Source: Verrucomicrobia bacterium LW23
Lineage (GTDB): Bacteria > Verrucomicrobiota > Verrucomicrobiia > Methylacidiphilales > UBA1321
Reading direction: 5' to 3'
NCBI GenBank assembly: GCA_003054695.1
Contig: QAZA01000017.1
Span: forward strand, 1-64,000
Length of the DNA: 64,000 nucleotides
How positions within the stretch are numbered: position 1 is the first letter of the stretch; each line of letters opens with the position of its first letter. Below are positions 30,208 to 50,718 of this stretch, one piece after another. The notes under the pieces are model-generated. The model worked only from the letters and a program-made list of their open reading frames with translations. It was not told the origin of the DNA and made no database searches. The position numbers were made by a program, and so were the translations under genes.

Positions 30208-31434
30208 ATGAAAACAGGCTTCTCTCTCCCCATTCTCGCTCTTCTCCTTGCCCTTGCCTTAGGCGCGCCCCGTTTCGCCTCTGCGCAATCCACTCCGGTA
30301 TCCGCGCCCGCGCCCGCACCCGCGCCCGCGCCCGCGCCTGCTCCGGCCCAGCCGGCCCCGGCCGCCAAAGGGAAGCCCGCCACGCCGCCCTCCGAGGAGC
30401 CGATTCCCGAGAAGTTCCCCTCCGAACTGCGCGTGGTGGGCAACCGCCTGCACGACAAGAACGGCAAGGAAGTGTGGTTGCAAGGCGTCCACGTTGTCAG
30501 CATGGAGTGGAATCCGAAGGGCGAGTCGGTGCTGGCCGCCACCAAAGAGGTGATTGAGAACTGGAAGGCCAACGTCATCCGCCTCTCCATTAAAGATGAT
30601 TTCTGGTACGGCAAAGGCTCCAAAAATATCAGGCAGGACGACGGCGGCGAAGCTTACCGCAAGCTCATTCAGGACGTCGTCAACTTCTGCGCCAACCGTG
30701 GCGCCTACGTGGTGATAGACCACCACCGCTTTGGCTACGTTAAGGAGGAGCACCTGCCCTTCTGGAAGGAAGTGGCCGAGGTGTACAAGAACCACCCCGC
30801 GGTGCTATTTGACGTGTTTAACGAGCCGCACGGTACGACCTGGGAGGTTTGGCGCAACGGCGGCACCATCGTCAAAAAGGACAAGAAGCCGAAGGTGGAC
30901 GAAGCCGCCTTCCTCTCCGCCGAGGAGAAAGCGCGCAACGAGACGGGGCCTTACTCCCCCGGCATGCAAAAGCTGGTGGAGGCCGTGCGCGAAACCGGCG
31001 CCAAAAACATCATCATCGCCGGCGGCCTGGACTACGCGTACGATCTCACCGGCATTACCGAAGGCTACGCGCTGGAGGACAAGACGGGCAACGGCGTTAT
31101 GTACGCCACGCATATCTACCCGTGGAAACGCGACTGGGAGAAGAAGGTGCTGCGCGCCGCGGAGAAGCACCCCATCTTTGTGGGCGAGGTAGGGGCGCAG
31201 GTGCAAAAGATGTCCTTCATCCCGGCCTCCGCGCAGGAGGATCCCTACACCTGGGCGCCGGATGTGATTGGCTTTATCCAGAAGCATCGCCTGAACTGGA
31301 CGGCCTTCTCCTTCCACCCCAAAGCCGCCCCCATCATGATCTCCGACTGGGAGTTTACGCCCACGCCCTTCTGGGGCCAGCCCGTTAAGGAGGCCCTCTC
31401 CGGCAAGCAGTTTGAGCTGAAGAAGATGCGCTAA
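30208..31434 (+). CDS. Secreted GH5 endoglucanase-like glycoside hydrolase
   Basis: A 408-residue exported cellulase-type enzyme. Signal peptide (LPILALLLALALGAPRFASA), an Ala-Pro repeat linker at ~32-50, then a (beta/alpha)8 GH5 domain. Diagnostic sites: VVIDHHRFG, FNEPHG with acid/base Glu206, THIYPWK, and FVGEVGA with nucleophile Glu327. Length matches a single-domain GH5. It would cleave beta-1,4-glucan or mannan outside the cell. The linker is encoded by GCGCCC-type hexamer repeats, prone to in-frame length change. It stands alone, convergent with the AspT-type transporter gene. Confidence 0.9.
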   Translation: MKTGFSLPILALLLALALGAPRFASAQSTPVSAPAPAPAPAPAPAPAQPAPAAKGKPATPPSEEPIPEKFPSELRVVGNRLHDKNGKEVWLQGVHVVSMEWNPKGESVLAATKEVIENWKANVIRLSIKDDFWYGKGSKNIRQDDGGEAYRKLIQDVVNFCANRGAYVVIDHHRFGYVKEEHLPFWKEVAEVYKNHPAVLFDVFNEPHGTTWEVWRNGGTIVKKDKKPKVDEAAFLSAEEKARNETGPYSPGMQKLVEAVRETGAKNIIIAGGLDYAYDLTGITEGYALEDKTGNGVMYATHIYPWKRDWEKKVLRAAEKHPIFVGEVGAQVQKMSFIPASAQEDPYTWAPDVIGFIQKHRLNWTAFSFHPKAAPIMISDWEFTPTPFWGQPVKEALSGKQFELKKMR

Positions 31435-31493
31435 GGAGCCTCGGCAAAGCATGCTTCTGCCTGGGTGGCGCGCAAGGTCACCCAGGCCACGCC

Positions 31494-33083
31494 TCAGAAA
31501 AACGATGGGGCAACATCCACAAAGAGAATCTTGATGATCGTCATGCTGGGGAAGATGACGGCAAAGATGGTATCCAGCCGCTCCGATGGGGAAAGCTTGT
31601 TGGCGTAGGCCAGGATGGCCGGGTTGCCGCACGTGCCGCAGATGATGCCCGCCACCTCGTCAAACGGCAGGCGAAAGACATAGAGGCCCAGAACAAGGAT
31701 GGGAGCGACAAATGCCAGCAGCACCAGCACGCCCAGGCCCATCATGACCAGGCCGCTGGATGTCTCGGTGACAGTGGCCGCAAATTTGGGGCCGGACGCC
31801 ATGCCAACCTGCGCCAAAAAAAGCGTAAGCCCCAGGTTGCGGATGACCAGGTTGGCCGAAAACGGTATCGTCCAGTTCAGCGGCCCGGTGCGCCTAAAGT
31901 GGCCGAGGAGCAGTGCCACAATCAGCACGCCGGCCAGGCCTACGGAGAGCGTGGCAGCGCCGGGCAGGGGAAAGGGAATCGCCCCGGCCAGAAAGCCCAG
32001 CGCCATGCCGATGCCGATGGAGATGAAGCTGAACTCCGCAGTGCCGCGGATGGAATCGCCAAAGTAGCGCCTCACTGCCGCAAAGTCGTCGCGATGGGCC
32101 AGCACGCCGATGCGATCGCCAAACTCCAGCACCAGATCGGGGCGCGGCACCAGGTCGGTATCGCCGCGGCGCACCATCAGGTAGATGGAATCGCGCTTCC
32201 ACGGCACCTGCAGATCGCCCAGGGCCCGGCCCACGACGGCGGCGCGAGAGGCGAAGACGCGCAGGTAGTCGAGATCCTGGCGATCCTTGACGAAGCGGCC
32301 GTGCGCTTCCTCCCCCAGCAGCGCGGCGGCATGGGTCAGGTCCTCGTGCCGAAAGGCGGTGGCCAGCAGCACGTCCTTAACCGCCACGGCCATGGTGGGG
32401 GATGCCGTCTCGTTATGGCTTTTGCGGCGCAGCGCCACAATGCGTACGCCGGGCAGCATCGCCATCAGTTCTGCCACGGTTTTGCCTGCGTAGTCCGGAT
32501 TGCGCACCACAATTTCCAGCATTTCCAGATCGGTAACCGAGGGCACGGGCGCCGACGGACGCAGCAGGGTGTAGGCCAGGTAGAGCACCAGAATGGGCCC
32601 GGCCACGCCAAACGGATAGGTGACGGAGTAGCCGATCGCCGGGTCATCGTTGCCGAGCAGCGCCACCGCCGCCTGCAGCGTGGGCGTGCTGGTGCCGGAG
32701 CCCGCAAACAGCCCCAGCGCGTGGCCTACCGTCATGTTGGCCGGGCCCATCAGGGCAACGCTGACCGCCCCGGCGCACAGCACGCCGGCCAGCGCAATTG
32801 CGTTGCTCAGCAACCCTTCGCGACTGGTGAGACCCAGCACAAACTGCCGCCCGTACTGCAGCCCCACTCCGTAGAGAAAGAGAGCCAGTCCCAGCGTGCC
32901 CACCATGGGGGAGGGCTGCGCCTGCGGCACCCACCACCCCACGGCCAGCGCCACAAACAGCACCGCGCCCACACCAATGGAGAAGCCCCGGAACACGAGG
33001 CCGCCGACGACATGCCCGATGGCAATCGTCAGGAAGAGCGCCATTAATGGCTGCTGCTCCAGGGTCGCCCGGATAAAGTCCAT
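31494..33083 (-). CDS. AspT/YidE-family transporter with two TrkA-C domains
   Basis: A 529-residue inner-membrane protein of the aspartate:alanine exchanger type. About five helices (residues 1-180) with the conserved GLFAGSGTSTPTLQAA, then two cytosolic TrkA-C/RCK_C domains (about 185-350: LEIVVRNPDYAGKTVAELMA and VGRALGDLQVPWKRDSIYLM), then a second membrane half with GIICGTCGNPAILAYAN, the mirrored substrate-site motif. E. coli relatives YidE and YbjL have unknown substrates. Length and domain order are normal. The gene is followed on the same strand, upstream, by a small hypothetical gene. No clear ribosome-binding site. Confidence 0.87.
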   Translation of the reverse strand: MDFIRATLEQQPLMALFLTIAIGHVVGGLVFRGFSIGVGAVLFVALAVGWWVPQAQPSPMVGTLGLALFLYGVGLQYGRQFVLGLTSREGLLSNAIALAGVLCAGAVSVALMGPANMTVGHALGLFAGSGTSTPTLQAAVALLGNDDPAIGYSVTYPFGVAGPILVLYLAYTLLRPSAPVPSVTDLEMLEIVVRNPDYAGKTVAELMAMLPGVRIVALRRKSHNETASPTMAVAVKDVLLATAFRHEDLTHAAALLGEEAHGRFVKDRQDLDYLRVFASRAAVVGRALGDLQVPWKRDSIYLMVRRGDTDLVPRPDLVLEFGDRIGVLAHRDDFAAVRRYFGDSIRGTAEFSFISIGIGMALGFLAGAIPFPLPGAATLSVGLAGVLIVALLLGHFRRTGPLNWTIPFSANLVIRNLGLTLFLAQVGMASGPKFAATVTETSSGLVMMGLGVLVLLAFVAPILVLGLYVFRLPFDEVAGIICGTCGNPAILAYANKLSPSERLDTIFAVIFPSMTIIKILFVDVAPSFF

Positions 33084-33143
33084 AGCGCTGACCAGTGGGG
33101 AGGGCCCGCTACACGCCCCGTGCCCTCCCCCGTGCGGGTGAGA

Positions 33144-33473
33144 TCAGATCAGCCCTTTTTCCTGGGCAATTTTCTTCAGAGCCTCAACGGTGCTCGGCAT
33201 CATCCGCCCCTTGGCGGTCAGGCCCGCTGAGTTGCCGCCCCAGATGCCGGTCATGTCTGCAAAGCAAAAAATGCCTCGCACGCCGGCTCTGTACTCGCAG
33301 AAGAATAGCCGCTCCGACTTGCGTTCCTCCACATAATTGTGGAACGACTGATCCCAGTCGTCCGTGGAAACAGGAATGGCGCGCGAAACGCCCTCGGCCG
33401 CTTCGGCGGCGGAAACTTCACGAATCGTTTGGCAAACAAGCGCCTTGTCACCCTGATTGGGAAGATCACTCAT
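33144..33473 (-). CDS. Small hypothetical protein (109 aa)
   Basis: A cytosolic-looking protein beginning MSDLPNQGDKALVCQTIREV (start 33473; a GTG at 33497 would add eight residues). Features are DDWDQSFHNYVEERKSERLF, a Cys-containing core (FFCEYRAGVRGIFCF) and GIWGGNSAGLTAKGRMMPST. It has no signal peptide or membrane helix. It lies 60 bases upstream of the AspT-type gene on the same strand and could be co-transcribed. No family recognised. The coherent composition and lack of an overlapping alternative support it as a gene. Confidence 0.6.
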   Translation of the reverse strand: MSDLPNQGDKALVCQTIREVSAAEAAEGVSRAIPVSTDDWDQSFHNYVEERKSERLFFCEYRAGVRGIFCFADMTGIWGGNSAGLTAKGRMMPSTVEALKKIAQEKGLI

Positions 33474-33604
33474 AGTGGTGGTCCCGATGTTGCACACCCT
33501 GGCCGCTTAGATCAAGCGCGGCGTTTTGCTCTTCGTGACGATCAAACGGTTGATCGAGAGATCTTGCCCTTGCCGTCGCTTCCTGCCTAAATGATTGCAT
33601 TCGT

Positions 33605-35527
33605 ATGCAAACGCCTTGCCTCTGTCCCGATCACGTCGCCGGCTTCTTTTCCTGCACCGCCCATCCCCGCGACGTGCTTCGAGGGCCTCGGCCCGGCTCG
33701 GTGGCCCTGCAAGGCTGGCTGCACAACAGGCTGCAGGCCGGCGTGGATAACCAGCTGAAGAAGCTGGAGTATCCGCGCATGGTGGATTACTTCCGCAACC
33801 GGCCCAACCCGTTTGCCTCGGGCGAGTTCTGGGGCAAAACCATGCGCTCTGCCTGCGTGAGCTACCAGTACCGGCCCGACCCGGAACTCCTGGCCATTCT
33901 CGACGCAAGCGTGGACGACTTGCTCTCCACACAAACGCCGGACGGCTGTATCAGCGCCCGCACCTACGACGAGCAGCCCAAAAGCTCCGACCTGTGGGAG
34001 CGCAAGTACGTACTGCTGGGCCTGCTGCATTACTACGAAATAGCGCCCCGCCCGGAGGTGCTGGAGGCGATGATCCGCATGGCGGACTACACGCTCGCGC
34101 AGGTAGGCCCGGCCCCCAAAACGCCGATAACCGAGACAGGCTGGGCGTTCTATGGCATCGAATCCAGCTCCATACTCGAGCCCATGATGCGCCTGCACCA
34201 GCTCACCGGCGAGGCGCGCTACCTCGCCTTCGCGCGCTATATTGTGGAGGAGACGGGCGGCTGCAAGCGCGGCAACATCTTTGAGGCCGCGCTGCAAGGA
34301 GTGGCTCCGCGGATGATAGGCGACAACGGCGTGCCGAAGGAGAGCATCGCCAAGTCGTACGAGATGATGTCGTGCTTTGAGGGCCTGGCCGATTACTACC
34401 GCGTTACCGGCGACGAGCGCTGGAAGGAAGCGGCGCTGACGCTGTACCGCAACATCCGCGACCAGGAAATCACAATCCTGGGCTCCGGCGGCGGCGATCA
34501 GCCCTACAATCTGGGCCCCGGCACCGGCGAGCAGTGGAACAACCTGGCCGCCGAGCAAACCAACCCCGACATGACGCTGATGATGGAGACGTGCGTCACC
34601 GTCACGTGGATGAAATTCTGCTATCACATCCTGCGCCTTACCGGGGACTCCACCGTGGCGGACGAGATTGAGAAGAGCATCTACAACGCCCTGGCCGGCG
34701 CGCAGAAGCCTACGGGGGATTACTACGATTACTTTCAACAGCTCAACGGCAGCCGCGGCGGCAAGGTCAACTTTTCCACGGACATTGCCGGCTTTGAACT
34801 GAGTTGCTGCACCGCCAACGGGCCGATGGGCATGGCTCTCATCCCCTTCTTTGCGGTGATGGAAGGGAAGCGCGGCCCGGTTGTCAACCTTTACGCTCCC
34901 GGCACGTGGCAAGGCACAACGCCGCTGGGCGGTCCGCTATCGCTGCGTTTGGAGACCGACTATCCCCGGAGCGGCGCCGTCTTAATTGAGGTGATGACAA
35001 ACCCGCCGGCGTTTGAGGCAGCCGAGAAGGAAAGCTTCGCCATCGCGCTGCGCATCCCTGCCTGGAGCCGCACTATCCGGCTGGCGATCAACGGTGTGGA
35101 CGTGTCCCAGCGCTGCTGCCCGGGAAGCTACGCCGTGCTGGATATGGCATGGCATCCGGGCGACCGCATCGAGCTGACCCTGGACATGACGTGCCGCCTC
35201 GTCCCCTCCCCCGGCGGAGTGAAATCCCCCGCCGGCCAGTACCAGGCCCTGCTGCGCGGCCCGCTGGCCCTGGCGCGCGACAGGCGCCTCGGCGGCGACG
35301 GCGATATCCACGCCCCGGTGCGCATCAAATCCCACCCGGATGGCACCGTGGAACTTCTTGCCATGGAAACACTTACCTCCATTACCCCGGCCGTTTACGA
35401 CTTCGCCCAAGTCGCCTTCCTCGTCGCCACGGAGCACGGCTTCTGCTTCCCGGTCATCGACTACGCCTCCGCCGGCAACACCTGGGACGAGAGCTCCGCG
35501 TTTGTAACGTGGATTCCGAAAGGTTAG
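33605..35527 (+). CDS. GH127-type beta-L-arabinofuranosidase (DUF1680)
   Basis: A 640-residue protein with an (alpha/alpha) barrel followed by beta domains. The GH127 metal site is intact by pattern: Glu328-x-Cys330 in MMETC and Cys401-Cys402 in LSCCTANG, equivalent to E338/C340/C417/C418 of Bifidobacterium HypBA1; GEQW (Glu309) may be the acid/base. These enzymes release beta-L-arabinofuranose, using a cysteine nucleophile. No signal peptide is visible, so it works in the cytosol on imported oligosaccharides. The stop overlaps the stop of the convergent GH105 gene by 3 bases. Together they fit breakdown of arabinose- and rhamnogalacturonan-containing pectin. Confidence 0.88.
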   Translation: MQTPCLCPDHVAGFFSCTAHPRDVLRGPRPGSVALQGWLHNRLQAGVDNQLKKLEYPRMVDYFRNRPNPFASGEFWGKTMRSACVSYQYRPDPELLAILDASVDDLLSTQTPDGCISARTYDEQPKSSDLWERKYVLLGLLHYYEIAPRPEVLEAMIRMADYTLAQVGPAPKTPITETGWAFYGIESSSILEPMMRLHQLTGEARYLAFARYIVEETGGCKRGNIFEAALQGVAPRMIGDNGVPKESIAKSYEMMSCFEGLADYYRVTGDERWKEAALTLYRNIRDQEITILGSGGGDQPYNLGPGTGEQWNNLAAEQTNPDMTLMMETCVTVTWMKFCYHILRLTGDSTVADEIEKSIYNALAGAQKPTGDYYDYFQQLNGSRGGKVNFSTDIAGFELSCCTANGPMGMALIPFFAVMEGKRGPVVNLYAPGTWQGTTPLGGPLSLRLETDYPRSGAVLIEVMTNPPAFEAAEKESFAIALRIPAWSRTIRLAINGVDVSQRCCPGSYAVLDMAWHPGDRIELTLDMTCRLVPSPGGVKSPAGQYQALLRGPLALARDRRLGGDGDIHAPVRIKSHPDGTVELLAMETLTSITPAVYDFAQVAFLVATEHGFCFPVIDYASAGNTWDESSAFVTWIPKG

Positions 35528-36588
35528 GGAGTCGCAGCCGCAAACAGCAGGGCAAAGGTGCCGTGCGGATCGTTGGGCGGGAAGTCGCGGCGCATCCAGG
35601 GTTCCTCGACCTCCAGGGGGCCGGGGCCCGGGCTGGCGCTGAGGACGACGCCGTCCGCCGTGACGTAGGTGGGCAGCGCGGAGAGGGCGGCGGCTGCGGA
35701 GGCCGCGTAGCGCTCCCCCGTAAGGTAGCCGTCGCGCACGGCCCGGGCCATATGGTGCGCAATCATCGCCGTGCCGCTGCTGTCGGGCGGGGATTGATCG
35801 GCGGGACGGTTGAGCAGTGTCGGCCACATACCGTCCGCGTGCTGCACGTCGAGCAGGGCGTCGGCTATTTCCGTAAAGTACGCGAGAAGCTCCGCGTGCT
35901 CCGGGCACTCGTGCGGAATGCTCCGCAGAGCGTGCTCCAGGCCGCGCATCAGCCAGCCGTGCCCGCGCGACCATGCGCCGGGCGAAAGCCGCATCGGCTC
36001 GGCGCCGAGCCACCCCCTGCCCTGCGACCACAGCCCCGTGCGCGGGCAGCGCAGCACCTGGCGATGCACGCGCATCTGACGGGCGCCCTCGGCAAACCAC
36101 TCGGCCTCCCCCAGCACGGCGCCGGTGCGCGCCACGCGGGAGACGTACTCCTGAATTCCGTCGATCAGCATCGCCTCGCCGCCGCCGCGCTTTTCGCCCC
36201 GCGGGTGAAGCACCACGCCGTCGGCATCGCGCCAGATCTCCTGGCGCATGAGCTGGCTCTCTTGCACAAACACGGGCAGCCACGCCTTGTCGCCGGTTGC
36301 CTCGTACGCCGCCCACGTCAGGCAGCTGAAGGGCTGCTTGCGCCAGCTTACGTGCGTGGCGGGGGTGATGCCGAGGGCCTCGCTCACGAGCCGCAGCGCC
36401 TCGTGCAGATACCGCTCCTGCCCGGGCACTTTCCCCAGCTCCAGCAAGCCCTCCAGGGCCAGCTGAAACATGTAATCCACCCGCCCCGTGCCGCCGCCAA
36501 GCACTCGCTCCGCCACGGCAATGCCGGCGTGCAGGGCGGGGTGGGTGGTGGCGGAAGTGGAGATGGCCGTTACGTCTGTGGCGCTCAT
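35524..36588 (-). CDS. Unsaturated rhamnogalacturonyl hydrolase-like protein (GH105/GH88)
   Basis: A 354-residue (alpha/alpha)6-barrel enzyme that removes the unsaturated uronic acid left by pectate or rhamnogalacturonan lyases. Seen are GRVDYMFQLALEGLLELGKV, GGGEAMLIDGIQEYVSRVAR with the catalytic-type Asp in IDG, and WSRGHGWLMRGLEHAL, the hallmark of YteR/YesR-like proteins. The ATG at 36588 is four bases after the stop of the upstream beta-helix gene (TGA-AGCG-ATG), so the two are an operon. An upstream in-frame ATG at 36621 merely reads the other gene's repeat. No signal peptide, so cytosolic. Confidence 0.87.
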   Translation of the reverse strand: MSATDVTAISTSATTHPALHAGIAVAERVLGGGTGRVDYMFQLALEGLLELGKVPGQERYLHEALRLVSEALGITPATHVSWRKQPFSCLTWAAYEATGDKAWLPVFVQESQLMRQEIWRDADGVVLHPRGEKRGGGEAMLIDGIQEYVSRVARTGAVLGEAEWFAEGARQMRVHRQVLRCPRTGLWSQGRGWLGAEPMRLSPGAWSRGHGWLMRGLEHALRSIPHECPEHAELLAYFTEIADALLDVQHADGMWPTLLNRPADQSPPDSSGTAMIAHHMARAVRDGYLTGERYAASAAAALSALPTYVTADGVVLSASPGPGPLEVEEPWMRRDFPPNDPHGTFALLFAAATP

Positions 36589-36592
36589 CGCT

Positions 36593-38521
36593 TCACTTGG
36601 CGCTGGCGCTGGCGCTGGCATTCAGCCAGGCGGGCGGGGCCAGTTTGGCGCCGGTATCCGGCAGGGGGCCGCCGGGGCGACGGCGGAAATCGCGCTTCTC
36701 GGGGTCCATAAACAGCGTCTTCATGTCCGTAACGGGGACGACCTGGCAGCCTTCGCCCATGTATTTGGCGTCGGCTTCGCGGAAGTAGATGTTGTTCTCA
36801 AATACGCCATCCAGCTTGCCGTAGGGGCGATCCATAATGTTGCCGCGCACCACAAGGCCCGAGGGTACGCTGACGCCCCGCCCGACCTGCCCAAACAGGC
36901 CGTTGGCCCAGTTCTGGCTGGTGGAGTTGTTGACAAACGTGTTGTTGAGGAACTGGATATCCTTCACGTCCTTGCCCCGCGTCTGGCCGCTTTGCCAGAT
37001 GGAGAAGGTGACGACCGACTGCTCCTTGGCATCCACCACGTTGTTGCGGATGACGATGCGCTCCGCGTTACGGTTCATGGTAATCACGTTCTCGATAAAG
37101 TTCTCCTCCACAACCACATCCGTACAGCCCTCGTACAGGTTCATGCCGCTGGAGTGCATGCCGTAGTGGTCCAGCACCACGTTGCGGGAGACGGAGCCGT
37201 TCATGCCCTCGTAGAAGCGGATGCCGCTGCCGGAGTTCTTGTCCAGAAAGTTGTCCTGAATCTTGAAGCCGGTAACGCGATTGATAAAGATGCCCGACGT
37301 CCAGCCCGGGCAGTGGCGAATCATGTTCTTCTCCACCAGCGCGTCATCCACGTGGCTGAGACCGACGCCCGCGTGGCCGGCCAGAAAGCGGATCTCGTTG
37401 TTGACGATGGCGATGTCCTTGCTGCGGCCGCTGCCGCGCTTGACGTTAATGCCGCCGCCGCCGCCCGAAAAGCGCTGGATAAAGAAGCCCTGCACACGCA
37501 GGTGCGAGGTGCCTCCCTCAATGGATATACCGGTAGCCTGCACCGGGTAAGCCACGTTCGCGGGCTGCCCGCCCTCTAGCCGCAACGGCAGGATGTAGAC
37601 GCGCGATTTGCCGTCGCCCAGCGCCTTGATGGTCCATTCGCCGGGGTTCTCGATATAGCGGGGGGAGTTGTAGAGCGCGTACGTGGTGGTGCCGTAAATC
37701 TCGCCCTTGTGCAGGGGGAAGGTGATCTGTTTGGTGTCGGGATTGTAGCTCTTGATGTCCGCAAAGTACACGTGGTTGTTGCCGGCGTGGATGCCCACCA
37801 TCGTGCCATCAAAGTAGTTGGCGTCGCTAGAGGTGAAGCGCTCCGTGTCGGTCAGCACGGTGGTGTTGGCGTCCTTGTTCAGCTCCAGCTTGGTGGGGGA
37901 TTTGAAGAAATCGCGCGGCAGGTCGGGAAAGAAGTCGTCCTTGGGCTTGGGGTGCTGGGCAATCGGCAGAATCTTCTTGTCGCCATCGCTCAGCATCACG
38001 CGCTGCCAGGGCGCCTGCACGTCCGGCGGCTGCTGGCGGTGCACCACTACTTTGTCGTGTTTGGTGTTGCTCGTGACGTCGATGCCGATGTCGGCAAAAA
38101 AGATCTGCTTCCATTTCGGGTTGCCCTTCACTTCGTCAGCGGAGGGCACGGGCTTCCAGCCGGTGATGACCGCGCCGCCGTCCAGAATAGCGCGGCCGGT
38201 GCCGAACTTGCCGGCGGTGTTGCCGTCGTAGGTAATGGGCTTTTCCGGCGCGCCGCTAACGTTGAGGGTGAGCGAGCCAAAGTAGGAGACGCCGCCCTTG
38301 AAGATAACCGTATCGCCCGGCGCCAGCCTGGCGGCGGCAGGCAGGCCGGTGGCGGCGGTATCGCCCGGCGCATGTTTCCAGGCCGTTGCGGGGGACAAGC
38401 CGTCCTTCTCGTTGTTGCCTTTTTCAAAGTCGACATAGTAATCCGCCGCATGCAGCGACGGGAGAATCAGGATCGCCAAAGCGACGGGAAGACACCTGGA
38501 AAAAGTGCGCAATAGCTTCAT
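36593..38521 (-). CDS. Secreted right-handed parallel beta-helix protein (pectate-lyase-like)
   Basis: A 642-residue exported protein (signal peptide LPVALAILILPSLHAA). It opens YYVDFEKGNNEKDGLSPATAW, the usual entry to polysaccharide-lyase-like beta-helix proteins of Bacteroidetes and Verrucomicrobiota. The middle has repeating coils (IVNNEIRFLAGHAG, ALVEKNMIRHCPGW, FKIQDNFLDKNSGSG, VVEENFIENVITMN, IVIRNNVVDAKE). Catalytic residues of named lyase families are not obvious, so it may be a lyase, a hydrolase, or a binding protein. The C-terminus ends ASASASAK, encoded by a GGCGCT hexamer repeat. It is the first gene of an operon with the GH105-like enzyme. Confidence 0.82.
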   Translation of the reverse strand: MKLLRTFSRCLPVALAILILPSLHAADYYVDFEKGNNEKDGLSPATAWKHAPGDTAATGLPAAARLAPGDTVIFKGGVSYFGSLTLNVSGAPEKPITYDGNTAGKFGTGRAILDGGAVITGWKPVPSADEVKGNPKWKQIFFADIGIDVTSNTKHDKVVVHRQQPPDVQAPWQRVMLSDGDKKILPIAQHPKPKDDFFPDLPRDFFKSPTKLELNKDANTTVLTDTERFTSSDANYFDGTMVGIHAGNNHVYFADIKSYNPDTKQITFPLHKGEIYGTTTYALYNSPRYIENPGEWTIKALGDGKSRVYILPLRLEGGQPANVAYPVQATGISIEGGTSHLRVQGFFIQRFSGGGGGINVKRGSGRSKDIAIVNNEIRFLAGHAGVGLSHVDDALVEKNMIRHCPGWTSGIFINRVTGFKIQDNFLDKNSGSGIRFYEGMNGSVSRNVVLDHYGMHSSGMNLYEGCTDVVVEENFIENVITMNRNAERIVIRNNVVDAKEQSVVTFSIWQSGQTRGKDVKDIQFLNNTFVNNSTSQNWANGLFGQVGRGVSVPSGLVVRGNIMDRPYGKLDGVFENNIYFREADAKYMGEGCQVVPVTDMKTLFMDPEKRDFRRRPGGPLPDTGAKLAPPAWLNASASASAK

Positions 38522-38656
38522 AGGGATGCTGGTGAAGGGATGAGTGGGCCGCGGAGTCAAACGATTGAATCTTTAGTCATGCTATTACCAGCGTCACATT
38601 TTACAATACAAAATGAAGAGATTTGTGGGGAACGCCCCTTTTCTCCTCTTCTGCGC

Positions 38657-39940
38657 CTAAAACGAATACACCACGTCCACCGCAAGCTGATGCTGATCCC
38701 GCCCGTTGATGATGGCGTCCGGGCCGTAATCATAACGGTACTCCACACGGCTCATCACGTTTTCCCACAGGTCGAAGCCGGCGGTGAGGGTGGCGGCGTA
38801 AAGGTCGGCGGGTGCATCGGTGGGGAAGAGGGCGTTGGAGCCGGGGATGGCATTGCCAATGAGCTTGGCGGAGTCGTCGTTATGGACATACTCCAGGCGC
38901 GTGGCCAGGCTGAAGACAGGGGTGAACTGGTACTTGCCAAACAGCGCAATGCCCCAGAAGTTGGAGTTATCGTCGCGCGGCACGCCAAACGCGGCGTCGG
39001 TGCCGGAGGAGGCGAAGCCTGCCACGGCATCAAACGCCAGCGTCAGCCGCTTGCCCGGCACGCAGGCCGGCTGCCACTGGCCGTACATCTCCGTCACCAG
39101 GTACGGCTCGTTCTCCAGAAAGCCCGGCGTGGCCTGGTTAGGCGCGCCCTCGGGCATAAAGAGGAAGGTGGGCGCCACAAAGGCCGTCTCTTCCGGGTTA
39201 TTGATGACAATCTGCCCGCTGATTGCCCCGCCCCAGTGGACGACTCCGCTTGAGAACAGCCCACTGTCGGAGCCATCCCAGCCGTTGGAGATATTTAGCG
39301 TGGCCTTTACCGTTTTGGTGAAGGGATACGTGAACTGGACGCCCGTCGCGTTGCCGTTTTCCAGCGCGGCGTTGACCAGGCCGTAGGTAAAATTCATGTT
39401 GGCCGGCCGCTCATCCGCCTCAATGCCGATAAACGAGGTCATCTTGCCAAACTGCACGTCCAGCCCGTTGCCAATGGGGATGCGCAGCGCAACATAGGCC
39501 TGCTCCAGATATAAGTCGGAGTCGCCCACGGCTGGATCGTTCGGCGCAAAGGCGTTCGCGTCCTCGCCATAAAATACATCGGTGCGGAAGCCGGCCGACC
39601 ACGCGCCGCGGTCCTCGCTCAGCTCGTTCTCCACCACCAGCTTAAAGGCGTTGATGTTGAAGTCGTTATGGCCATCCGCGCGAAATACGCTCTCCGTGCT
39701 TGCCGCACCATTCTCCCCCTGGGACGCGAACTGATTGGTGTAGCTGGCCTCCACGTAGCCGCTCAGTTTCACGCCCGGCTTGGCCGTCTCCACGTAGATA
39801 ATGCTCTCCTCCAACGCTTTGGAGAGAGATTTGCCATCCGGAGCGGCGGGTGCCGCGGGATCCCCCGCATGGACGGCCGCACCGCCGGCGAGGAGAGCCA
39901 GCATGCCCTTGAGTGCAACTGCGGAGTAGAAAGCGCGCAT
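38657..39940 (-). CDS. Outer-membrane beta-barrel porin-like protein
   Basis: A 427-residue protein with signal peptide (MRAFYSAVALKGMLALLAGG, then AAVHA). The rest alternates amphipathic strands: VKLSGYVEASYTNQF, INAFKLVVENE, AWSAGFRTDVFYGE, YVALRIPIGNGLDVQFGKMT, terminating in VDVVYSF with a final Phe as needed for outer-membrane insertion. It matches the putative beta-barrel porin (BBP2/DUF1597) group common in Verrucomicrobiota and Planctomycetes. It probably lets oligosaccharides or anions through. The start at 39940 is preferred over a GTG at 39994. It is a separate transcription unit upstream of the beta-helix gene on the same strand. Confidence 0.83.
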   Translation of the reverse strand: MRAFYSAVALKGMLALLAGGAAVHAGDPAAPAAPDGKSLSKALEESIIYVETAKPGVKLSGYVEASYTNQFASQGENGAASTESVFRADGHNDFNINAFKLVVENELSEDRGAWSAGFRTDVFYGEDANAFAPNDPAVGDSDLYLEQAYVALRIPIGNGLDVQFGKMTSFIGIEADERPANMNFTYGLVNAALENGNATGVQFTYPFTKTVKATLNISNGWDGSDSGLFSSGVVHWGGAISGQIVINNPEETAFVAPTFLFMPEGAPNQATPGFLENEPYLVTEMYGQWQPACVPGKRLTLAFDAVAGFASSGTDAAFGVPRDDNSNFWGIALFGKYQFTPVFSLATRLEYVHNDDSAKLIGNAIPGSNALFPTDAPADLYAATLTAGFDLWENVMSRVEYRYDYGPDAIINGRDQHQLAVDVVYSF

Positions 39941-43835: not shown

Positions 43836-44513
43836 CTACGGCTGGTAGACTTTAGCCGTGCCGGTAAACGGATTGAGCTGGATAAGCGCGTAGTTTTTGA
43901 CAGTGCGGTTGGTTCCGCGCAAGTCGTTGGCGTTCTTGTCCATATAGCGCACGGGCAGCACGGAGATAAACGTGTTGGCCATGCCCATGTCCAGCATGTT
44001 GGGGATCAGCCCGGAGGGGCGGATCTCAAAGCCCACGTAGTTGAGCGACTGCGGGCCGTACGCCAGGGTGCCGGAGAGCGGCGGCGGCGTGGCCGTGCCC
44101 ACCAGTGGCGGCGAGAGATACGGCGCGCTCGTCCCCACGGCCACCACAATGCCTTGCGGCAGCGGCGTCATTTTGCTGACGGGTTCGGACTCGGAACCCG
44201 CCGGATCCACGCGCCACAGCTGCACGGCGTTGTAGACGTTGGGGTAGCTGCTGAGCGGGCCCTGCAGGCCGTACTGCTGGCGCACAAAGCGCACCTCTAC
44301 GGAGACATTGCGCGCGGCGGCCAGCTGGCGGGCCTGGCTCACGTAGTCGGAGACAATCTGCCCGGCGGCGGAGATGTTGTTCGCCTCCGACACGCCCTGA
44401 ATCATCGGCACGGAAAGGGCCATGATGACCGCGATGATCGACACCGTAAACAGCAGCTCAAGCAGGCTGAAAGCGGCGGCCGATGCGGCGCGGGTCGAGA
44501 GAGGGCGATTCAT
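43836..44513 (-). CDS. Verru_Chthon cassette protein D (GspH-like pseudopilin)
   Basis: A 225-residue protein with a class III prepilin signal: basic MNRPLSTRAASAAA, then F-S-L-L-E (Glu at +5) and a hydrophobic helix (ELLFTVSIIAVIMALSVPMI). The globular part has LAAARNVSVEVRFV, as in GspH-type minor pseudopilins, and ends FTGTAKVYQP. An upstream in-frame Met at 44585 adds 24 residues and is not favoured. It is the last gene of the cassette, 75 bases after C. The likely role is in the tip of a type II secretion-like pseudopilus. The prepilin peptidase and secretion ATPase are not in the window. Confidence 0.85.
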   Translation of the reverse strand: MNRPLSTRAASAAAFSLLELLFTVSIIAVIMALSVPMIQGVSEANNISAAGQIVSDYVSQARQLAAARNVSVEVRFVRQQYGLQGPLSSYPNVYNAVQLWRVDPAGSESEPVSKMTPLPQGIVVAVGTSAPYLSPPLVGTATPPPLSGTLAYGPQSLNYVGFEIRPSGLIPNMLDMGMANTFISVLPVRYMDKNANDLRGTNRTVKNYALIQLNPFTGTAKVYQP

Positions 44514-44588
44514 TGTCGGGAAACGAAAAGTACGCGGAAGAAGAATTAGGGAGAAGAGACAGGGGGAAGCGGCGTCAGCAGGCACCTA

Positions 44589-45638
44589 TCAGAAGCCTGC
44601 TCCCTCGCCGCTCCATTTGGACTCACGCATGGGCACCACCGTCTTGAAGATGCGGAACGCGACCCCCTTGGCCGCCAGCGCCTCGCTCACAGCTTCAATA
44701 TCGGTGGTGTAGGCGGCGGTGTTGACAAAGCGGCCGTTGAGCGCGTCTTTGATTGCGGCGGGCTCCGTGGCGGAGTTGGTGTCCAGTTTGACGGCGGACG
44801 CCTCGCTGATGGTAATCACCGTCAGCTCAATCATCGGCGGCAGCTGGTTCTCCGTTACGGCCTGCGGGTTGGCGATGGTGGTGCCCGGGGCGGAGTCGTA
44901 CGTGTAATTGGTGGTCAGCGTGGTGCCGGTGGGATCCTGCGGGATCATGATCAGCGCGATCACGTTGTCGGCAATGGGGGAAACGTTCGTGCGCACGGCG
45001 GCGGGGTCATTACAGATAGTCTGCAGCCACTCGAGGCCGCCGCCCGGTGTGGTGCCGACCCAGCGCGAGGGCGGGTTTTTGAAAAGCTGCAGGTTCTCCG
45101 TGCGCTCAAGGCCCTGCATCAGGCGGTAGCGCCAGCGGGCCTGGTCGGTAGGCGTGGGGCGGAACGTGTCGTTATTGTTGTACTGGACAAAATAGCCGCA
45201 TGCGTTCATCAGGTTTTGCAGGCCGCTCAGCGGCTGCTGCGTGCTGAAGGAAAGGGGCGAAACAAAGTAGATCTCCTGCCCGCAGCCCGGGTTGCGCACG
45301 TTAGGCTGGATCAGGAACTGCAGGTCCGACAATCGGATATATCGTGTAGGCGCCGCCGCCGAGGGCGTCTTGTAGTTGTCGTACCCGTAGTAGGTGTTAA
45401 GCGTGGCCAGGGAGATTTTCTGGCTTAAATCGTTGGCGGCGCGCGCCGTGGCCAGGGCGGTCACTTCGGATGTCGCCTGCCGCACCGTGCGGCTGACGGA
45501 CGAGGTGAGGCCGGCCAGGATGGTCAGCAAAATCGCCAGCACGCCAATCGCCGCCATCAGCTCCACCAGGGTGAACGCAGCCAGGCGCGACAGGGCGCGG
45601 GCAGAACGTTTACGGCGGAAAGTGGGCTGAGGATTCAT
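44589..45638 (-). CDS. Verru_Chthon cassette protein C (GspJ-like pseudopilin)
   Basis: A 349-residue protein. The prepilin motif is R-L-A-A-F-T-L-V-E with Glu at +5, then LMAAIGVLAILLTILAGL. The rest is a large globular domain (DLQFLIQPNVRNPGCGQEIY, YRLMQGLERTENLQLF) and ends KWSGEGAGF. Longer than GspJ (about 200), its closest analogue by position and N-terminus. Start 45638 chosen over 45680, which adds residues before the basic leader. The gene is 132 bases downstream of B and on the same strand. Confidence 0.85.
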   Translation of the reverse strand: MNPQPTFRRKRSARALSRLAAFTLVELMAAIGVLAILLTILAGLTSSVSRTVRQATSEVTALATARAANDLSQKISLATLNTYYGYDNYKTPSAAAPTRYIRLSDLQFLIQPNVRNPGCGQEIYFVSPLSFSTQQPLSGLQNLMNACGYFVQYNNNDTFRPTPTDQARWRYRLMQGLERTENLQLFKNPPSRWVGTTPGGGLEWLQTICNDPAAVRTNVSPIADNVIALIMIPQDPTGTTLTTNYTYDSAPGTTIANPQAVTENQLPPMIELTVITISEASAVKLDTNSATEPAAIKDALNGRFVNTAAYTTDIEAVSEALAAKGVAFRIFKTVVPMRESKWSGEGAGF

Positions 45639-45770
45639 GGGATTGGAAAGCGAACGGAGGACAAACAGGTCGGGCACCAATGCACAGGAGGGAGGGAAAC
45701 GCTGGACCAGAAGGCGGGGAGGAGAAGAAGCAGGAGGGACATTTGCTGTCCCTGCCTGCCCGCTTAGAGC

Positions 45771-46316
45771 TTACTGGCGCTGGCGGGCCAGCAGGAGCGG
45801 GATGTCGTTGGTGGTGGTGTTGGCGCCGTAGGGGTAGGTGATCGACACCTTGACCGTCTGCGCGTTGCGGGTCAGGAAGGTCAGGGGCGAGCCGTCGCCG
45901 CCATCCACTTCCGCGTCGGCCTTTACCATGGAGACGGTGTAGTACGGGGGAAGGTCGGCCGTGGTGGTATCGGTGGGGATGCCGTCCGATGTAAAGTACA
46001 TCGGCGTGGCGACAAAAGTGTTAAGGCTCTTGGGGCCGGACACCTCGGTCAGGGACATCTGCTGCAGCTTGCCGCGCACGTGCGCCACAATGGTGGCCTG
46101 CGTTTGCACGGCTCGCGCATCCTTAAGGGTGATGAGGCCCACGCCCATAACGCCCACAATGGAAAGCACGCCAAACGACACGATTCCCAGCGCAAACGTC
46201 ACCTCAATCAGGCTGAAGCCGCCACGGGCCGAACGGCTTTTGACACAAGATTGACGATATGCACAAAAAAGGGCGGCGAGGAGCGAGCTTTTGGTAATGT
46301 GGGACCAGAAATTCAT
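45771..46316 (-). CDS. Verru_Chthon cassette protein B (GspI-like pseudopilin)
   Basis: A 181-residue pseudopilin. The leader is long (about 33 residues, with SCVKSRSARGG before the cleavage point), then F-S-L-I-E with Glu at +5 and VTFALGIVSFGVLSIVGVMG. GspI is the analogue by size and N-terminus (FSLIEV). The start at 46316 is preceded by GGAG eight bases upstream. A conserved 36-bp element lies about 160 bases upstream, shared with gene A. B, C and D probably form one transcript. Confidence 0.83.
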   Translation of the reverse strand: MNFWSHITKSSLLAALFCAYRQSCVKSRSARGGFSLIEVTFALGIVSFGVLSIVGVMGVGLITLKDARAVQTQATIVAHVRGKLQQMSLTEVSGPKSLNTFVATPMYFTSDGIPTDTTTADLPPYYTVSMVKADAEVDGGDGSPLTFLTRNAQTVKVSITYPYGANTTTNDIPLLLARQRQ

Positions 46317-46478
46317 GTGAGTTTCTCCGTGTTCGAAACGTGGGGCGTTTCGACCTTGCGAAACGCGTGATTTGGGAAAGTTGCAGAGGAGAGACCCGGC
46401 CGTGTGACCTTTGCCGTTGCAGCAATTAAGGCTGCGTGTCTCATGTAATTAGAATATATGAATTAGCACTAAAGCGTT

Positions 46479-46514
46479 AGTCGAAACCTGATTTCAAAAT
46501 TGTTGTTTCCTGAC
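46479..46514 (-). promoter_or_regulatory. Shared 36-bp upstream element, copy before cassette B
   Basis: Nearly identical (35/36) to 50845-50880: both begin AGTCGAAACCTGA and end TTGTTGTTTCCTGAC on the plus strand. A second conserved piece (TTAGAATA-ATG-AT) lies just to the left of each copy. Read toward the gene this is ATTCTAA, which could be part of a -10 region. It lies ~160 bases upstream of the B start. Probably a binding site or promoter common to A and B-C-D. Confidence 0.6.
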
Positions 46515-46599
46515 TAATTCCTGCCTGCACCAGACATTGACTCGAGCACAACGACCCTCCCCTCCAACCGCGGGAGAGGGCCTCCGCCGCGCCACCGCG

Positions 46600-49500
46600 T
46601 TATTGCGGGAAGGCGTTGTTGGAGATAATCCTCCACTGGTAGAACGCATCAAGCGTCTTGGCATTCGCATTCCCGGGGGTGTAGAGAGATGCATCGGTCG
46701 CGTAGTCGCGGATGTTAGGGTTCTCCGGATCGATAAAGCGCTCCAGAGTGGTCGAGCCGCGGAATTCGCCCTCCACCACGCCCTTCGTCTCGTCCCACCG
46801 CGTCGGGTCCCCGCCAGGCGTGCGCGGATTCTTCAGCGCCTGCACGGTGTAGTACACCTTAAACGTGTTGGATTTGGTCGTCAGCCGCGGGTAGATGCCC
46901 GCGTAAGGCCGCTCGCGAACGTTATCGCCCAGGAGAGCGAAGTCGCCCGTGGAGTTGTACCAGGCTGCGTCGGCCTCGGTGTCGGATGCCCACGCGTAGA
47001 GCGAGCCTCCGAAATTGCTCGCATCCGGCGGCAGGTAGATGGAGCAGATCTCCGCTGGGGAGCGGAAGATATCGCCAGAGGAGAAGCGCTCCTGAAACTG
47101 CCGCAGCGCGCCGTTCACCTCGCTGAGGTTGATGGGCAGGCGAGCCGGTGCGTTGCCGGTGGTGACCGCGGTTGAGTAGGACTTATAGTTATTGCCGCGG
47201 GCGGCAGGAACGCGCGCCACCATTTCGGAGGAAAGCACCGCGCGCACGCCCGTGGAGCGCGTGATGTAGCTGAACGGCACGATGGCGTAGTTCATGTTGA
47301 TTTTGCCGGCCGTGGAGAGCGGCTCGCTGATCGCATACGGATCAACAATCGGCATATGGAACAGATCGAGCAGCAGATAGTCCTTGGGGCCGGAGACCGG
47401 ATCAAGCGGGCGATTGATTTGCGGGCGGAAGCACAGAGTGCGCCAAGCCACGTTTTCTTTCACGCCGGTCGGCAATGAACCTAACATGACAGCAGAAGGC
47501 ACAATTCTGTTGGGCGAGTGGTATTTGCCGAGCGTCGACTGTGTCTCCAGCGAGCCCCAGTACGGCGTGCCCCAGTCGGTGGTGATGGTGGCGCCCGTGC
47601 CGTTGATATTGCCTTCGTCCGCCTTGTTGGCAAAAGCCCCGTCCGCACACGTGGGCCAGCCGGAGTCCCAGTCGCCCTGTTCGGAGATCGCAATGGGCAG
47701 GTTGGTCGGCACCTTGGGCAGGAAATGGGCGGCGATGTTGGTAACGCCCCGCGCCAGGCGGCCGGCAGAGTAGCCGGGGATGCGGTTGCCGGCATTGGCC
47801 AGCCAGTGCGTAAAGCTGTGCGCCAGCTTGCGGGTGCCGTAAAACTCATGTGGCACCAGGTCCGCCTGTGTGGCGGCACCCACTGGGGCAGTGCCCAGCG
47901 ATTTCTTGGCAGCTGTCAGTCGCGTGTCGTTCTGGAAGGGGATAATCGTGAAGACCGTATCGCTCTTGTAGTTCTGCGCGGCAGCGGAGTCGCGAAGGCC
48001 CACGGCTTTGATGGAGGTTGGAAGTCTCCAATCGGCGGTCGTGTAGCCGGTGGTCGTGCCGTCAGTGCGGATCATCGCGCCGCGGGAAACGTTGGTGCCG
48101 TCGCCGGCAGCGCTGTTGACCCAGGCGATACGGTTGGCGATACCCCACCAGTCGTTAGCCTTGGTCGGAGCGGAACTCGGGAGGGACAGGCCGTCCTGCA
48201 GCAGATCCGGCACCGGTACGTTGGTTGCGGGCAGCGTGATGGTGAAAGTCTGGATGAGGAGGTCGGAGGCCGGAGTAATCGTGCGAGGCCCCGAAGCCAT
48301 GAGATTGGAGACGGGATTCGGCATGTAGATTTCAACCACAAAGGTTCCGGAAACGCTCATGGTGGAGCCGGTGGTGTCGGCGTTGAGCGTAAATGGCACG
48401 CTCACAAACGGATAGACGAGTCTGGGGTTGGATGGCGCAGGGGCGCCCCACCCGCTGACGCGGCTGTTCGTAATCGGAGAACCACTGGTATAGCCAGTCA
48501 TCCAGCGGATACCGCCGGCGGCGCCGCCCAGGTTGTAGCTTCCATCCATGCGACCGTTGTTGCTGACCAGGACATCATCGGCGGTGAAAGGATTGGCAGT
48601 GCCGCCACTGGTGCCGCTAAACCGCACATTGTTAAGGCCGCGCACTTGTACCTTGAAGGCTGGGGCAAGTGCCGCACTGCCCATCATCGGGTTGTGCGGC
48701 TCCAGCAGCAGCATGGCCTGAAAGCGCTTTTGGCCGGAGCTGAGGGCGCCGTCCGTCAGCGTGGGGTTGGCCGGGAAGTTGCCACCAATGGCGCCGTCCT
48801 CTCCAACCTGCTGGCCGGATGCGTTCCTTAGAGGTTGAGGCGTCGCCAGGTTGCTGACAGAGCGCCAGTCATACGCGCTGTTATTGGCCGTCGGCGCCGG
48901 GCCGTTGCCATCCGCTGTGCACACGACGAGGAAGCCGATCTCCGAGAGCGTGAAATAGCGGCCCAGACCTTGGGTGGAGACGGCGCCGCGCTCAATCTGG
49001 ATCGGCACCACCTGGCCCGTACCCCAGCCGCCGCTGCCCGGGGCAAACTGGTTGGAGGCGGTGGTAAAGTTCATGTCGCGCAGGTTAACGCAGCGGATGT
49101 AGTCAAAGATCTCCGTCAGGATCTGCTCCCACTCGCCGTTAAACGTGTACTTGCTGGAGAAGCTGCCGCCGAAGCCGGGAATATTCATCCGCGTGAGGTT
49201 GAACATGTACTCGTACAACTCGCGATTGCGCTGGATGTTCGTCCAGTCCGCCGTGGGGCTCGTCGAGTTTTGCTTCTGGAAGAAGTAGGGGTACTTGGTC
49301 GTGCCGCTGCTCCTGCCAACGCTGGAGCAAAACGCGATGACCTGGTCGTACGCCGTCACGCGCGTCTTAGTGCCAGCCGTCATAATCTGCGCGTCCACCG
49401 GCCACATGGAGATGCGGGGCGTGCCAAAGAGAGTGACTTCCGGGGCGCGGCTCGTCGTCGTTAGGAAGAACTTGCCCGTCTCCAGGGTGTTGCGGTTAAC

Positions 49501-50718
49501 CGTAGCGCTGTTGACCGTACGATTCCTGTCGTAGAATAGCTCCGAGAGCGACGTGTAAAGGCGATGCGACTTGGCCGTGGGGCTGTTGGAACCGACGGCG
49601 CCCTGAGAGCTGGCCACCGTGTACTGCGTGCCCTGCTTGCTGCCAAAATCGTCGTTGTAGTACGGTAGCAGCGTAAAGAAGGCTGACGAGGTTCCCACCG
49701 CGGAAGGGTAGGCGCCGGGGTTAAAGCCCAGGCCTACCAGGATGTCATAAAAGTTGGTCGTCGCCGGGTGGCCGGGGTAGCGCTGATACTCTTTGCTCAG
49801 CGGCTGGCTTTTGGCAAAGATCATCGTGTCCTGGTAGCTGCCAAAGTGCGGTGTGTCCCAGCTGGCGTAGGTGCCGTCACCGCGCGCGTTGCCGGCGGCG
49901 GTGTTGATGTTAACCTTGGCGCACTCGTCGTCTGTCCAGTAGGCTACGCGGCCGACGATGGGGTTGTTGGTGGTGGCGCCGGGCACCACGGCAATGTCGC
50001 CGCCGGTGCCGGAGCCGGGGACGACCATCTTGCCATCCTGCAGGATGTAGAGCCACTGCACGGGCATGGGAACCGGCTGCTCGGCCGTGGCGCCGGGGAC
50101 GTCCGTGGCGCCGGAGGTGCCGTTGGCGCCGGTGGTGTAGCCGGGGATGCGGCCCAGGTGGAAGCCTTTGAGTTTGGTGGGAGCGATAACGCTCGGCGCG
50201 TTGATTGTGCCGGGCGCGGTCGGGTCGCGCGGGTCCAGAATGGGGAACTGCAGGGTGGTGGTGCCGTCGGCCTCGCGCGTGTGCGCGGGGGAGTTGAGAT
50301 CCACCCACATGGCGGGGGAGGCATTCCAGTTATCGGGCGGCACGTCGTTGGCCAGCAGCAGGCCGTCCGTCACGTTCGGGTTAACCGCGCCGGAGGAGTA
50401 GAGGCGGTACACCTTCTCCAGGTTGCCGCTGTTGTTAAACACGCGGATGGCGCCGGGCTGCGACGCCCACGCGCTGGTGGCGTCCAGCGTCGTCGCCTCG
50501 TTAATCTGCGCCTGCACCAGGTTGACAACGCGATCGGTAAGCGCCGAGGTGTTGCCCAGGGCGCGCAGGCCGGCGGCGGAGCCCTGCTCGTTGCCGGCGC
50601 GCAATAAAAGGCCGACAGCCAGCGTCGTCAGCAGCACCAGCACCGCCAGTACGATCAGCAGCGCGCTGCCGCGCCGCGCCTGGCGCCGCGTGGTAAGTTG
50701 AAGGAGCGAAGTTTTCAT
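46600..50718 (-). CDS. Verru_Chthon cassette protein A (giant GspK-like pseudopilin)
   Basis: A 1372-residue protein, paralogous to 14154-18308. The N-terminus is R-R-G-S-A-L-L-I-V-L with no Glu at +5, like GspK, followed by a hydrophobic helix (LAVLVLLTTLAVGLLL). The body holds GRVAYWTDDECAKVNINTAA, YQRYPGHPATTNFYDILV, FFLTTTSRAPEVTLFGTPRI, DLFHMPIVDPYAISEPLSTA and a C-terminal RGSTTLERFIDPENPNIRDY. GspK caps the type II pseudopilus, and this family is about four times larger, so an enlarged tip or cargo-binding protein is inferred. It is first in the A-B-C-D order, 283 bases upstream of B. No ribosome-binding site is clear. Confidence 0.88.
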   Translation of the reverse strand: MKTSLLQLTTRRQARRGSALLIVLAVLVLLTTLAVGLLLRAGNEQGSAAGLRALGNTSALTDRVVNLVQAQINEATTLDATSAWASQPGAIRVFNNSGNLEKVYRLYSSGAVNPNVTDGLLLANDVPPDNWNASPAMWVDLNSPAHTREADGTTTLQFPILDPRDPTAPGTINAPSVIAPTKLKGFHLGRIPGYTTGANGTSGATDVPGATAEQPVPMPVQWLYILQDGKMVVPGSGTGGDIAVVPGATTNNPIVGRVAYWTDDECAKVNINTAAGNARGDGTYASWDTPHFGSYQDTMIFAKSQPLSKEYQRYPGHPATTNFYDILVGLGFNPGAYPSAVGTSSAFFTLLPYYNDDFGSKQGTQYTVASSQGAVGSNSPTAKSHRLYTSLSELFYDRNRTVNSATVNRNTLETGKFFLTTTSRAPEVTLFGTPRISMWPVDAQIMTAGTKTRVTAYDQVIAFCSSVGRSSGTTKYPYFFQKQNSTSPTADWTNIQRNRELYEYMFNLTRMNIPGFGGSFSSKYTFNGEWEQILTEIFDYIRCVNLRDMNFTTASNQFAPGSGGWGTGQVVPIQIERGAVSTQGLGRYFTLSEIGFLVVCTADGNGPAPTANNSAYDWRSVSNLATPQPLRNASGQQVGEDGAIGGNFPANPTLTDGALSSGQKRFQAMLLLEPHNPMMGSAALAPAFKVQVRGLNNVRFSGTSGGTANPFTADDVLVSNNGRMDGSYNLGGAAGGIRWMTGYTSGSPITNSRVSGWGAPAPSNPRLVYPFVSVPFTLNADTTGSTMSVSGTFVVEIYMPNPVSNLMASGPRTITPASDLLIQTFTITLPATNVPVPDLLQDGLSLPSSAPTKANDWWGIANRIAWVNSAAGDGTNVSRGAMIRTDGTTTGYTTADWRLPTSIKAVGLRDSAAAQNYKSDTVFTIIPFQNDTRLTAAKKSLGTAPVGAATQADLVPHEFYGTRKLAHSFTHWLANAGNRIPGYSAGRLARGVTNIAAHFLPKVPTNLPIAISEQGDWDSGWPTCADGAFANKADEGNINGTGATITTDWGTPYWGSLETQSTLGKYHSPNRIVPSAVMLGSLPTGVKENVAWRTLCFRPQINRPLDPVSGPKDYLLLDLFHMPIVDPYAISEPLSTAGKINMNYAIVPFSYITRSTGVRAVLSSEMVARVPAARGNNYKSYSTAVTTGNAPARLPINLSEVNGALRQFQERFSSGDIFRSPAEICSIYLPPDASNFGGSLYAWASDTEADAAWYNSTGDFALLGDNVRERPYAGIYPRLTTKSNTFKVYYTVQALKNPRTPGGDPTRWDETKGVVEGEFRGSTTLERFIDPENPNIRDYATDASLYTPGNANAKTLDAFYQWRIISNNAFPQ

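Follow-up and report, generated by a model that had tools for sequence, protein, structure and literature searches.

Four protein families are listed by NCBI as Verru_Chthon A, B, C and D (TIGR02600, TIGR02598, TIGR02599 and TIGR02596) under names that give no role. All four meet in one cassette of Verrucomicrobia bacterium LW23, within a stretch of 64,000 nucleotides (contig QAZA01000017.1, positions 1 to 64,000), which is referred to as the window throughout. What these proteins are, and what they may do together, is the question raised by this locus. A literature search, with most subscription papers outside its scope, found no paper naming Verru_Chthon or its TIGR accessions. A first-pass annotation of the window had read the cassette as an oversized set of the minor pseudopilins GspK, GspI, GspJ and GspH, forming a dedicated tip complex that borrows a type II secretion system (T2SS) core from elsewhere in the genome.

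Gsp counterparts of the cassette genes

The cassette consists of four adjacent, co-directional genes on the minus strand (43836-50718), and a second A gene lies in the same window:

43836-44513, minus strand: D, GspH/FimU-like minor pseudopilin (TIGR02596), ATG start, 225 aa; 84.1 bits, hhalign D-H 97.9%
44589-45638, minus strand: C, GspJ-like minor pseudopilin (TIGR02599, below cut-off); model matches GspJ/XcpW/EpsJ
45771-46316, minus strand: B, GspI-like minor pseudopilin (TIGR02598, just below cut-off); hhalign B-I 95.8% over 113 columns
46600-50718, minus strand: A, oversized GspK-like minor pseudopilin (TIGR02600), 1372 aa; 841.7 bits
14154-18308, plus strand: second, lone A gene (TIGR02600), no B, C or D nearby

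The start codon of C is ambiguous (TTG at 45680 or ATG at 45638). All four genes match the Verru_Chthon families directly, as the first-pass annotation had recognized. A (E 1.2e-252, cut-off 332.3 bits) and D (cut-off 70 bits) score above the NCBIfam thresholds; B (43.8 bits, cut-off 51.4) and C (219.6 bits, cut-off 256.5) fall just under the curated values, and in both cases the match is clear and the best by far.

The leader peptides were also described correctly. B, C and D contain prepilin sites with Glu at +5 (GG^FSLIE, AA^FTLVE and AA^FSLLE, respectively), and the leader of A (RRG^SALLIVLAVLVLL) lacks this residue. The same pattern holds across paralogues: Glu at +5 occurs in 0 of the 32 A paralogues in the LW23 genome, is invariant in aligned B (n = 23) and D (n = 21) sequences, and is nearly invariant in C. 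Such a distribution is far beyond chance. The window proteins conform to the leader pattern of GspH-I-J-K, which is class III with Glu5 in H, I and J but not in K.

We compared the cassette proteins, profile against profile (hhalign), with reference GspG, H, I, J and K sequences from the phylum, from LW23 itself and from E. coli K-12. The best partners were GspK for A (92%), GspI for B (95.8%), GspJ for C (96.3%) and GspH for D (97.9%), with every other pairing scoring lower. After removal of the N-terminal helix only the D-GspH pair was still recognizable (66%), and therefore the assignment of the A, B and C bodies rests on models or synteny. Profile searches of the PDB with A, B or C returned nothing useful. 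Scores against the curated Gsp models lay below the cut-offs for window A (GspK, 17.2 bits, cut-off 130), B (GspI, 14.5 bits, cut-off 44.35) and D (GspH, 13.1 bits, cut-off 80). By sequence, the window proteins look like divergent relatives, not members, of the housekeeping Gsp equivalogs.

For window C, an AlphaFold model built on a 77-sequence alignment (pLDDT 90.9) matched GspJ, XcpW and EpsJ with Z scores of 9.5-11. GspJ-type chains together with the Thermus pilin TTHA1219 spanned Z 9.5-11.6, and the next unrelated chain reached 2.6. C is thus predicted to share the GspJ fold. For D, the Pfam model GspH (PF12019) scored above its gathering threshold in two paralogous D genes and below it in window D, and FimU matched the D profile within the body (E 0.0019, profile positions 31-69).

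Gene order in distant relatives provides a further line of evidence. Five distant loci (L220, L224, L232, L233 and L234) retain the canonical T2SS order: G-type genes come first, then H, I and J, and last a K enlarged to 741-1169 aa. The GspK HMM matches these intermediate giant K proteins in colinear pieces (residues 1-57, ~110-170 and ~190-280), and the same proteins match the long A in its C-terminal part. Loci L219, L220, L224 and L230-L234 contain up to four GspG-like genes with H-I-J-K; they are whole pseudopilus sets, with no core genes in the stretch read.

The mapping of A to GspK, B to GspI, C to GspJ and D to GspH, proposed in the first-pass annotation, is well supported by profile comparison, by the folds predicted for C and for one A paralogue (see below) and by synteny; the GspH matches of paralogous D genes agree with it. 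The annotation had also named what would count against it, namely folds unlike those of GspI, GspJ and GspH, or a genome devoid of assembly ATPases. Neither was found: the C model is GspJ-like, and ATPases are present.

Protein A as an enlarged GspK

With 4.3 times the length of the LW23 GspK (318 aa), A is indeed about four times the usual size, as had been claimed. The following segments were distinguished in the window protein:

50488-50667, minus strand: mature N-terminal helix after RRG^SALLIV, no Glu5, GspK-type; hhalign A-K 92% over 71 columns
49894-49950, minus strand: conserved motif RVAYWTDDECAKVNINTAA; weak, non-significant alignment to both GspK 'G.inlN' motifs
49075-49131, minus strand: WEQILTEIFDYIRCVNLRD, putative counterpart of the GspK alpha-domain 'L.DWvD.D', inferred via shorter relatives
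47233-47364, minus strand: conserved block LFHMPIVDPYAISEPLSTAGKINMNYAIVPF..., the most conserved of the family; aligns with shorter giant GspK proteins
46825-46929, minus strand: C-terminal beta region GDNVRERPYAGIYPRLTTKSNTFKVYYTVQ, from weak hhalign matches and shorter relatives

The A protein that we modelled is the paralogue L037 (1181 aa, 37% identical to window A). This model (pLDDT 85.2, pTM 0.89) matched XcpX (Z 14.4, 231 of 259 residues) and GspK (Z 14.2, 252 of 280 residues), the next chain reaching 4.4. The GspK match is spread across residues 29-1181 of L037, and the model indicates that A is a GspK with its fold interrupted by large inserts. Foldseek alone ranked GspK first at a non-significant E of 0.53, and the match given above required a second aligner. 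Family scans gave A a match to a GspK model and none to a PilX model. Middle and C-terminal pieces of A compared with GspK by hhalign were not significant, and a Pfam scan of the 32 A bodies returned one weak helix-hairpin-helix match and nothing else. For the insert no known fold was established, since C2-like and beta-sandwich chains reached only Z 3-4.4.

Conservation along L037 peaks in segments corresponding to the shared core (residues 161-200, 961-1000 and 1081-1120, among others) and is lowest at about residues 540-860, the inserted region. Low conservation in this region would be expected of a part involved in recognition.

Copies, core genes and neighbors

Family searches of the LW23 genome (6.6 Mb, 56 contigs) yielded 32 A genes, 17 above the family cut-off and 15 more divergent. 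Profiles built in this analysis located B, C and D at 20 of these A loci; six contain only A, among them the gene at 14154-18308, and six hold an incomplete set. All 32 A frames are intact, without stops over 1000-1474 codons, and residues of A are invariant across deep divergence. The first-pass annotation had missed the lone A gene on the plus strand of the window and the roughly 30 further A genes in the genome. Its description of the cassette as a dedicated tip complex is not supported in this form, because there are 32 A loci, of which this cassette is only one, and the T2SS of this organism has its own normal GspH-I-J-K.

Scanning bacterial and archaeal genomes brought up 439 encoded relatives. 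We kept the loci of 79 relatives, nearly all with verrucomicrobial titles, and in 55 of these A is accompanied by B, C and D (ordered BCDA in 22, ABCD in 15, BCAD in 10 and DBCA in 7, with a few variants). TIGR02600 matches occur in 208 of 388 genomes of the phylum. We considered whether these are mere hydrophobic N-termini; among 20 distant loci checked in other families of the phylum, 11 contain all four genes and six A alone, so many of the matches are real relatives. Distances between A proteins correlate with those between C proteins across all loci (r 0.94; within the canonical group 0.45), and B correlates poorly. The A-C correlation implies that the sets mostly diversified together, with some mixing possible. 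Two cassettes have tandem A genes (L152, 10010-18428; L178, 9884-18774), an arrangement which suggests that two giant GspK proteins could share one B-C-D set.

Core machinery is encoded in the same genome, as the first-pass annotation had anticipated. The contig that carries the cassette (C17) also holds, ~18 kb further on, a T2SS operon (68-82 kb) that encodes GspD, GspE, GspF and its own normal-size GspG-H-I-J-K (GspK, 318 aa). One clear prepilin peptidase gene was found. The genome also contains T4P-type parts (two PilB-like and several PilT-like ATPases, PilC, PilM and further secretins). A search for PilY1 gave no match in LW23, and the control genomes gave none either. Full-length GspD is encoded in 8 of 8 genomes of the phylum with full-length A, six genomes of the same order without A contain no full-length GspD, and in six other genomes without full-length A the secretin matches are partial and T4P-like. 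This co-occurrence stems from few lineages and does not prove that A uses the T2SS.

Locus L057 (G000 C23:14000-33990) resembles the mucin-utilization locus MUL2 in that it contains PilM (PDB PilM, E 9e-40), two PilN/O-like genes and two secretins; the top PDB match of a 221-aa protein encoded there is Amuc_1102, at a weak E of 0.31. MUL2 was reported as undetected in Methylacidiphilales (PMC13174399). The order to which the LW23 genome belongs appears to hold small genomes resembling Methylacidiphilaceae.

The first-pass annotation had also connected the cassette to glycosidases. This link stands statistically for the cassettes as a set, but not for the window cassette itself, whose neighbors are a bestrophin gene and a phosphate transport (pst-like) operon, with no obvious cargo gene. 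Of the 32 A genes, 11 have a LacI-family gene within 5 kb, compared with 2.7 expected under random placement. This count was not reached in 5000 random draws, a null model that ignores the clustering of functionally related genes. Among 111 genes flanking cassettes, eight encode a LacI domain, and GH95, GH28 and GH1 are also present; in 111 control genes from arbitrary stretches, LacI was not among the families listed. LacI-like regulators adjoin 19 of the 79 relatives' loci. The window has a stretch of sugar genes (30208-39940) about 4-20 kb from its cassette:

30208-31434: GH5
33701-35527: GH127
36593-38479: beta-helix protein
38657-39940: BBP2 porin

Glycoside hydrolase or adhesin-like genes do neighbor some cassettes. 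At L031 (8072-17396, minus strand), the gene directly upstream of A on the same strand encodes a 1797-aa protein with beta-galactosidase-like domains, and at L028 a GH28 protein is encoded downstream of D, also on the same strand. At L029 (911-5656) and L034 (14091-19130), large proteins with filamentous-haemagglutinin-type N-terminal domains are encoded beside the cassette on the same strand. These four neighbors are candidate cargo or partners.

Proposed exchangeable tips for a shared machine

How might so many sets without a core work? In our best reading, to which we assign a probability of roughly 0.58, the cassettes encode extra, exchangeable GspK-I-J-H tip complexes with a giant GspK that serve a shared pseudopilus or pilus machine. 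The analysis establishes homology and synteny, the predicted folds of C and one A paralogue, the number of copies, the presence of core genes and LacI enrichment. The prepilin peptidase of the genome would cleave A, B, C and D, which would then form an H-I-J-K-type complex in the inner membrane. This complex would prime and later cap a pseudopilus whose core machine has its genes elsewhere; the most likely candidate is the T2SS ~18 kb away on the same contig. At the tip position that we infer, the giant K would face outward, towards or through the secretin. With about 20 quartets available, one machine could take different tips, and the variable insert of A may recognize cargo or target. Many sets are placed in sugar-responsive loci. 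Counted against this reading are the normal H-K set of the T2SS itself, the presence of T4P-type parts, the six of 32 A genes that stand alone and the window cassette without obvious cargo.

A retractable type IV-like pilus capped by these sets, with giant A as a tip adhesin that catches glycans and retraction pulling them into the periplasm, a mechanism already proposed for the mucin-utilization pilus of Akkermansiaceae, is the strongest competitor, though we consider it less likely. The genome does offer PilB-type ATPases, several PilT-like ATPases, PilC, PilM and two secretins, as well as the MUL2-like locus with its weak Amuc_1102 match in a 221-aa protein, and LacI and sugar genes lie near cassettes. 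There are published precedents as well. The mucin-utilization type IV-like pilus of Akkermansiaceae (MUL2) has been linked to the attachment and uptake of glycans (PMC13174399); in Myxococcus, three minor-pilin/PilY1 clusters are suggested to form tips with different substrates (PMC7541494); and Verruconatronum up-regulates a pseudopilin on alginate and has 67 homologues of a PulG-like protein (PMC13274419). However, the A model holds a nearly complete GspK fold (252 of 280 residues) and A matches no PilX model, and full-length A tracks full-length GspD, while genomes with partial T4P-like secretins lack full-length A. On the strength of this nearly whole GspK fold and of the co-occurrence with GspD, we favor the T2SS over the pilus as the machine that is served.

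Two further explanations were weighed. Very high copy number, lone A genes and incomplete loci are what might be seen if the cassettes were a lineage-specific paralogous expansion of redundant minor pseudopilins with little or no function of their own. This is improbable given that 32 of 32 frames are intact over 1000-1474 codons, that residues stay invariant across deep divergence, that the quartet is kept together in many families, and that A-C distances correlate (r 0.94) and LacI genes are associated. Still less credible, to the point that we give it almost no weight, is the idea that A shares only its leader with GspK and has an unrelated body, so that the cassette would be a different surface complex. 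The nearly empty Pfam scan of the A body and the non-significant hhalign comparison of its C-terminal third with GspK fit this idea, but the predicted structure of the L037 A protein already contradicts it, with a GspK match (252 of 280 residues) whose Z of 14.2 exceeds that of the next chain by ten units, and the GspK HMM pieces are colinear in shorter relatives.

The exchangeable tip complexes that we propose resemble known systems in part. With GspH-I-J-K of the T2SS (XcpU-V-W-X, EpsH-I-J-K) they share class III leaders, Glu5 in three of four proteins, the GspJ and GspK folds and, in distant relatives, the gene order. Unlike those systems, the cassette K is about four times larger with inserts, the cassette lacks GspG and core genes, and tens of copies occur per genome. 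Minor pilin/PilY1 clusters 1-3 of Myxococcus xanthus likewise serve one shared machine as alternative sets and include a large tip protein; there, however, the large part is a separate PilY1 bound to PilX, whereas in the cassette the GspK-type pilin itself is enlarged, and the cassette sets are about ten times more numerous (PMC7541494). MUL2 is also a verrucomicrobial pilin-like system tied to glycan use, but it is a PilM/pilin-like core locus and not an H-I-J-K tip set, and the MUL2-like locus of LW23 is separate (PMC13174399). Verruconatronum alginivorum shares the mass duplication of pseudopilins in a verrucomicrobial genome and has one pseudopilin raised on alginate, although its 67 homologues are those of a single PulG-like protein and not GspHIJK-type quartets (PMC13274419).

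In the functional picture, a repertoire of tips should replace the single dedicated tip. More tentatively, and with somewhat less than even confidence, we suggest that in Verrucomicrobiota one shared pseudopilus machine is served by at least 20 separately regulated GspHIJK-type tips, the insert of each giant GspK selecting a polysaccharide target or an enzyme cargo. Four protein families that were named but had no role each receive a Gsp counterpart and with it a structural identity, and a type II-like tip set proves to exist in dozens of copies that lack the core. Should cargo or target be chosen by the tips, natural variation inside one genome would allow tests of how the T2SS recognizes its substrates, and the repertoire would be a candidate mechanism by which Verrucomicrobiota deal with many polysaccharides.
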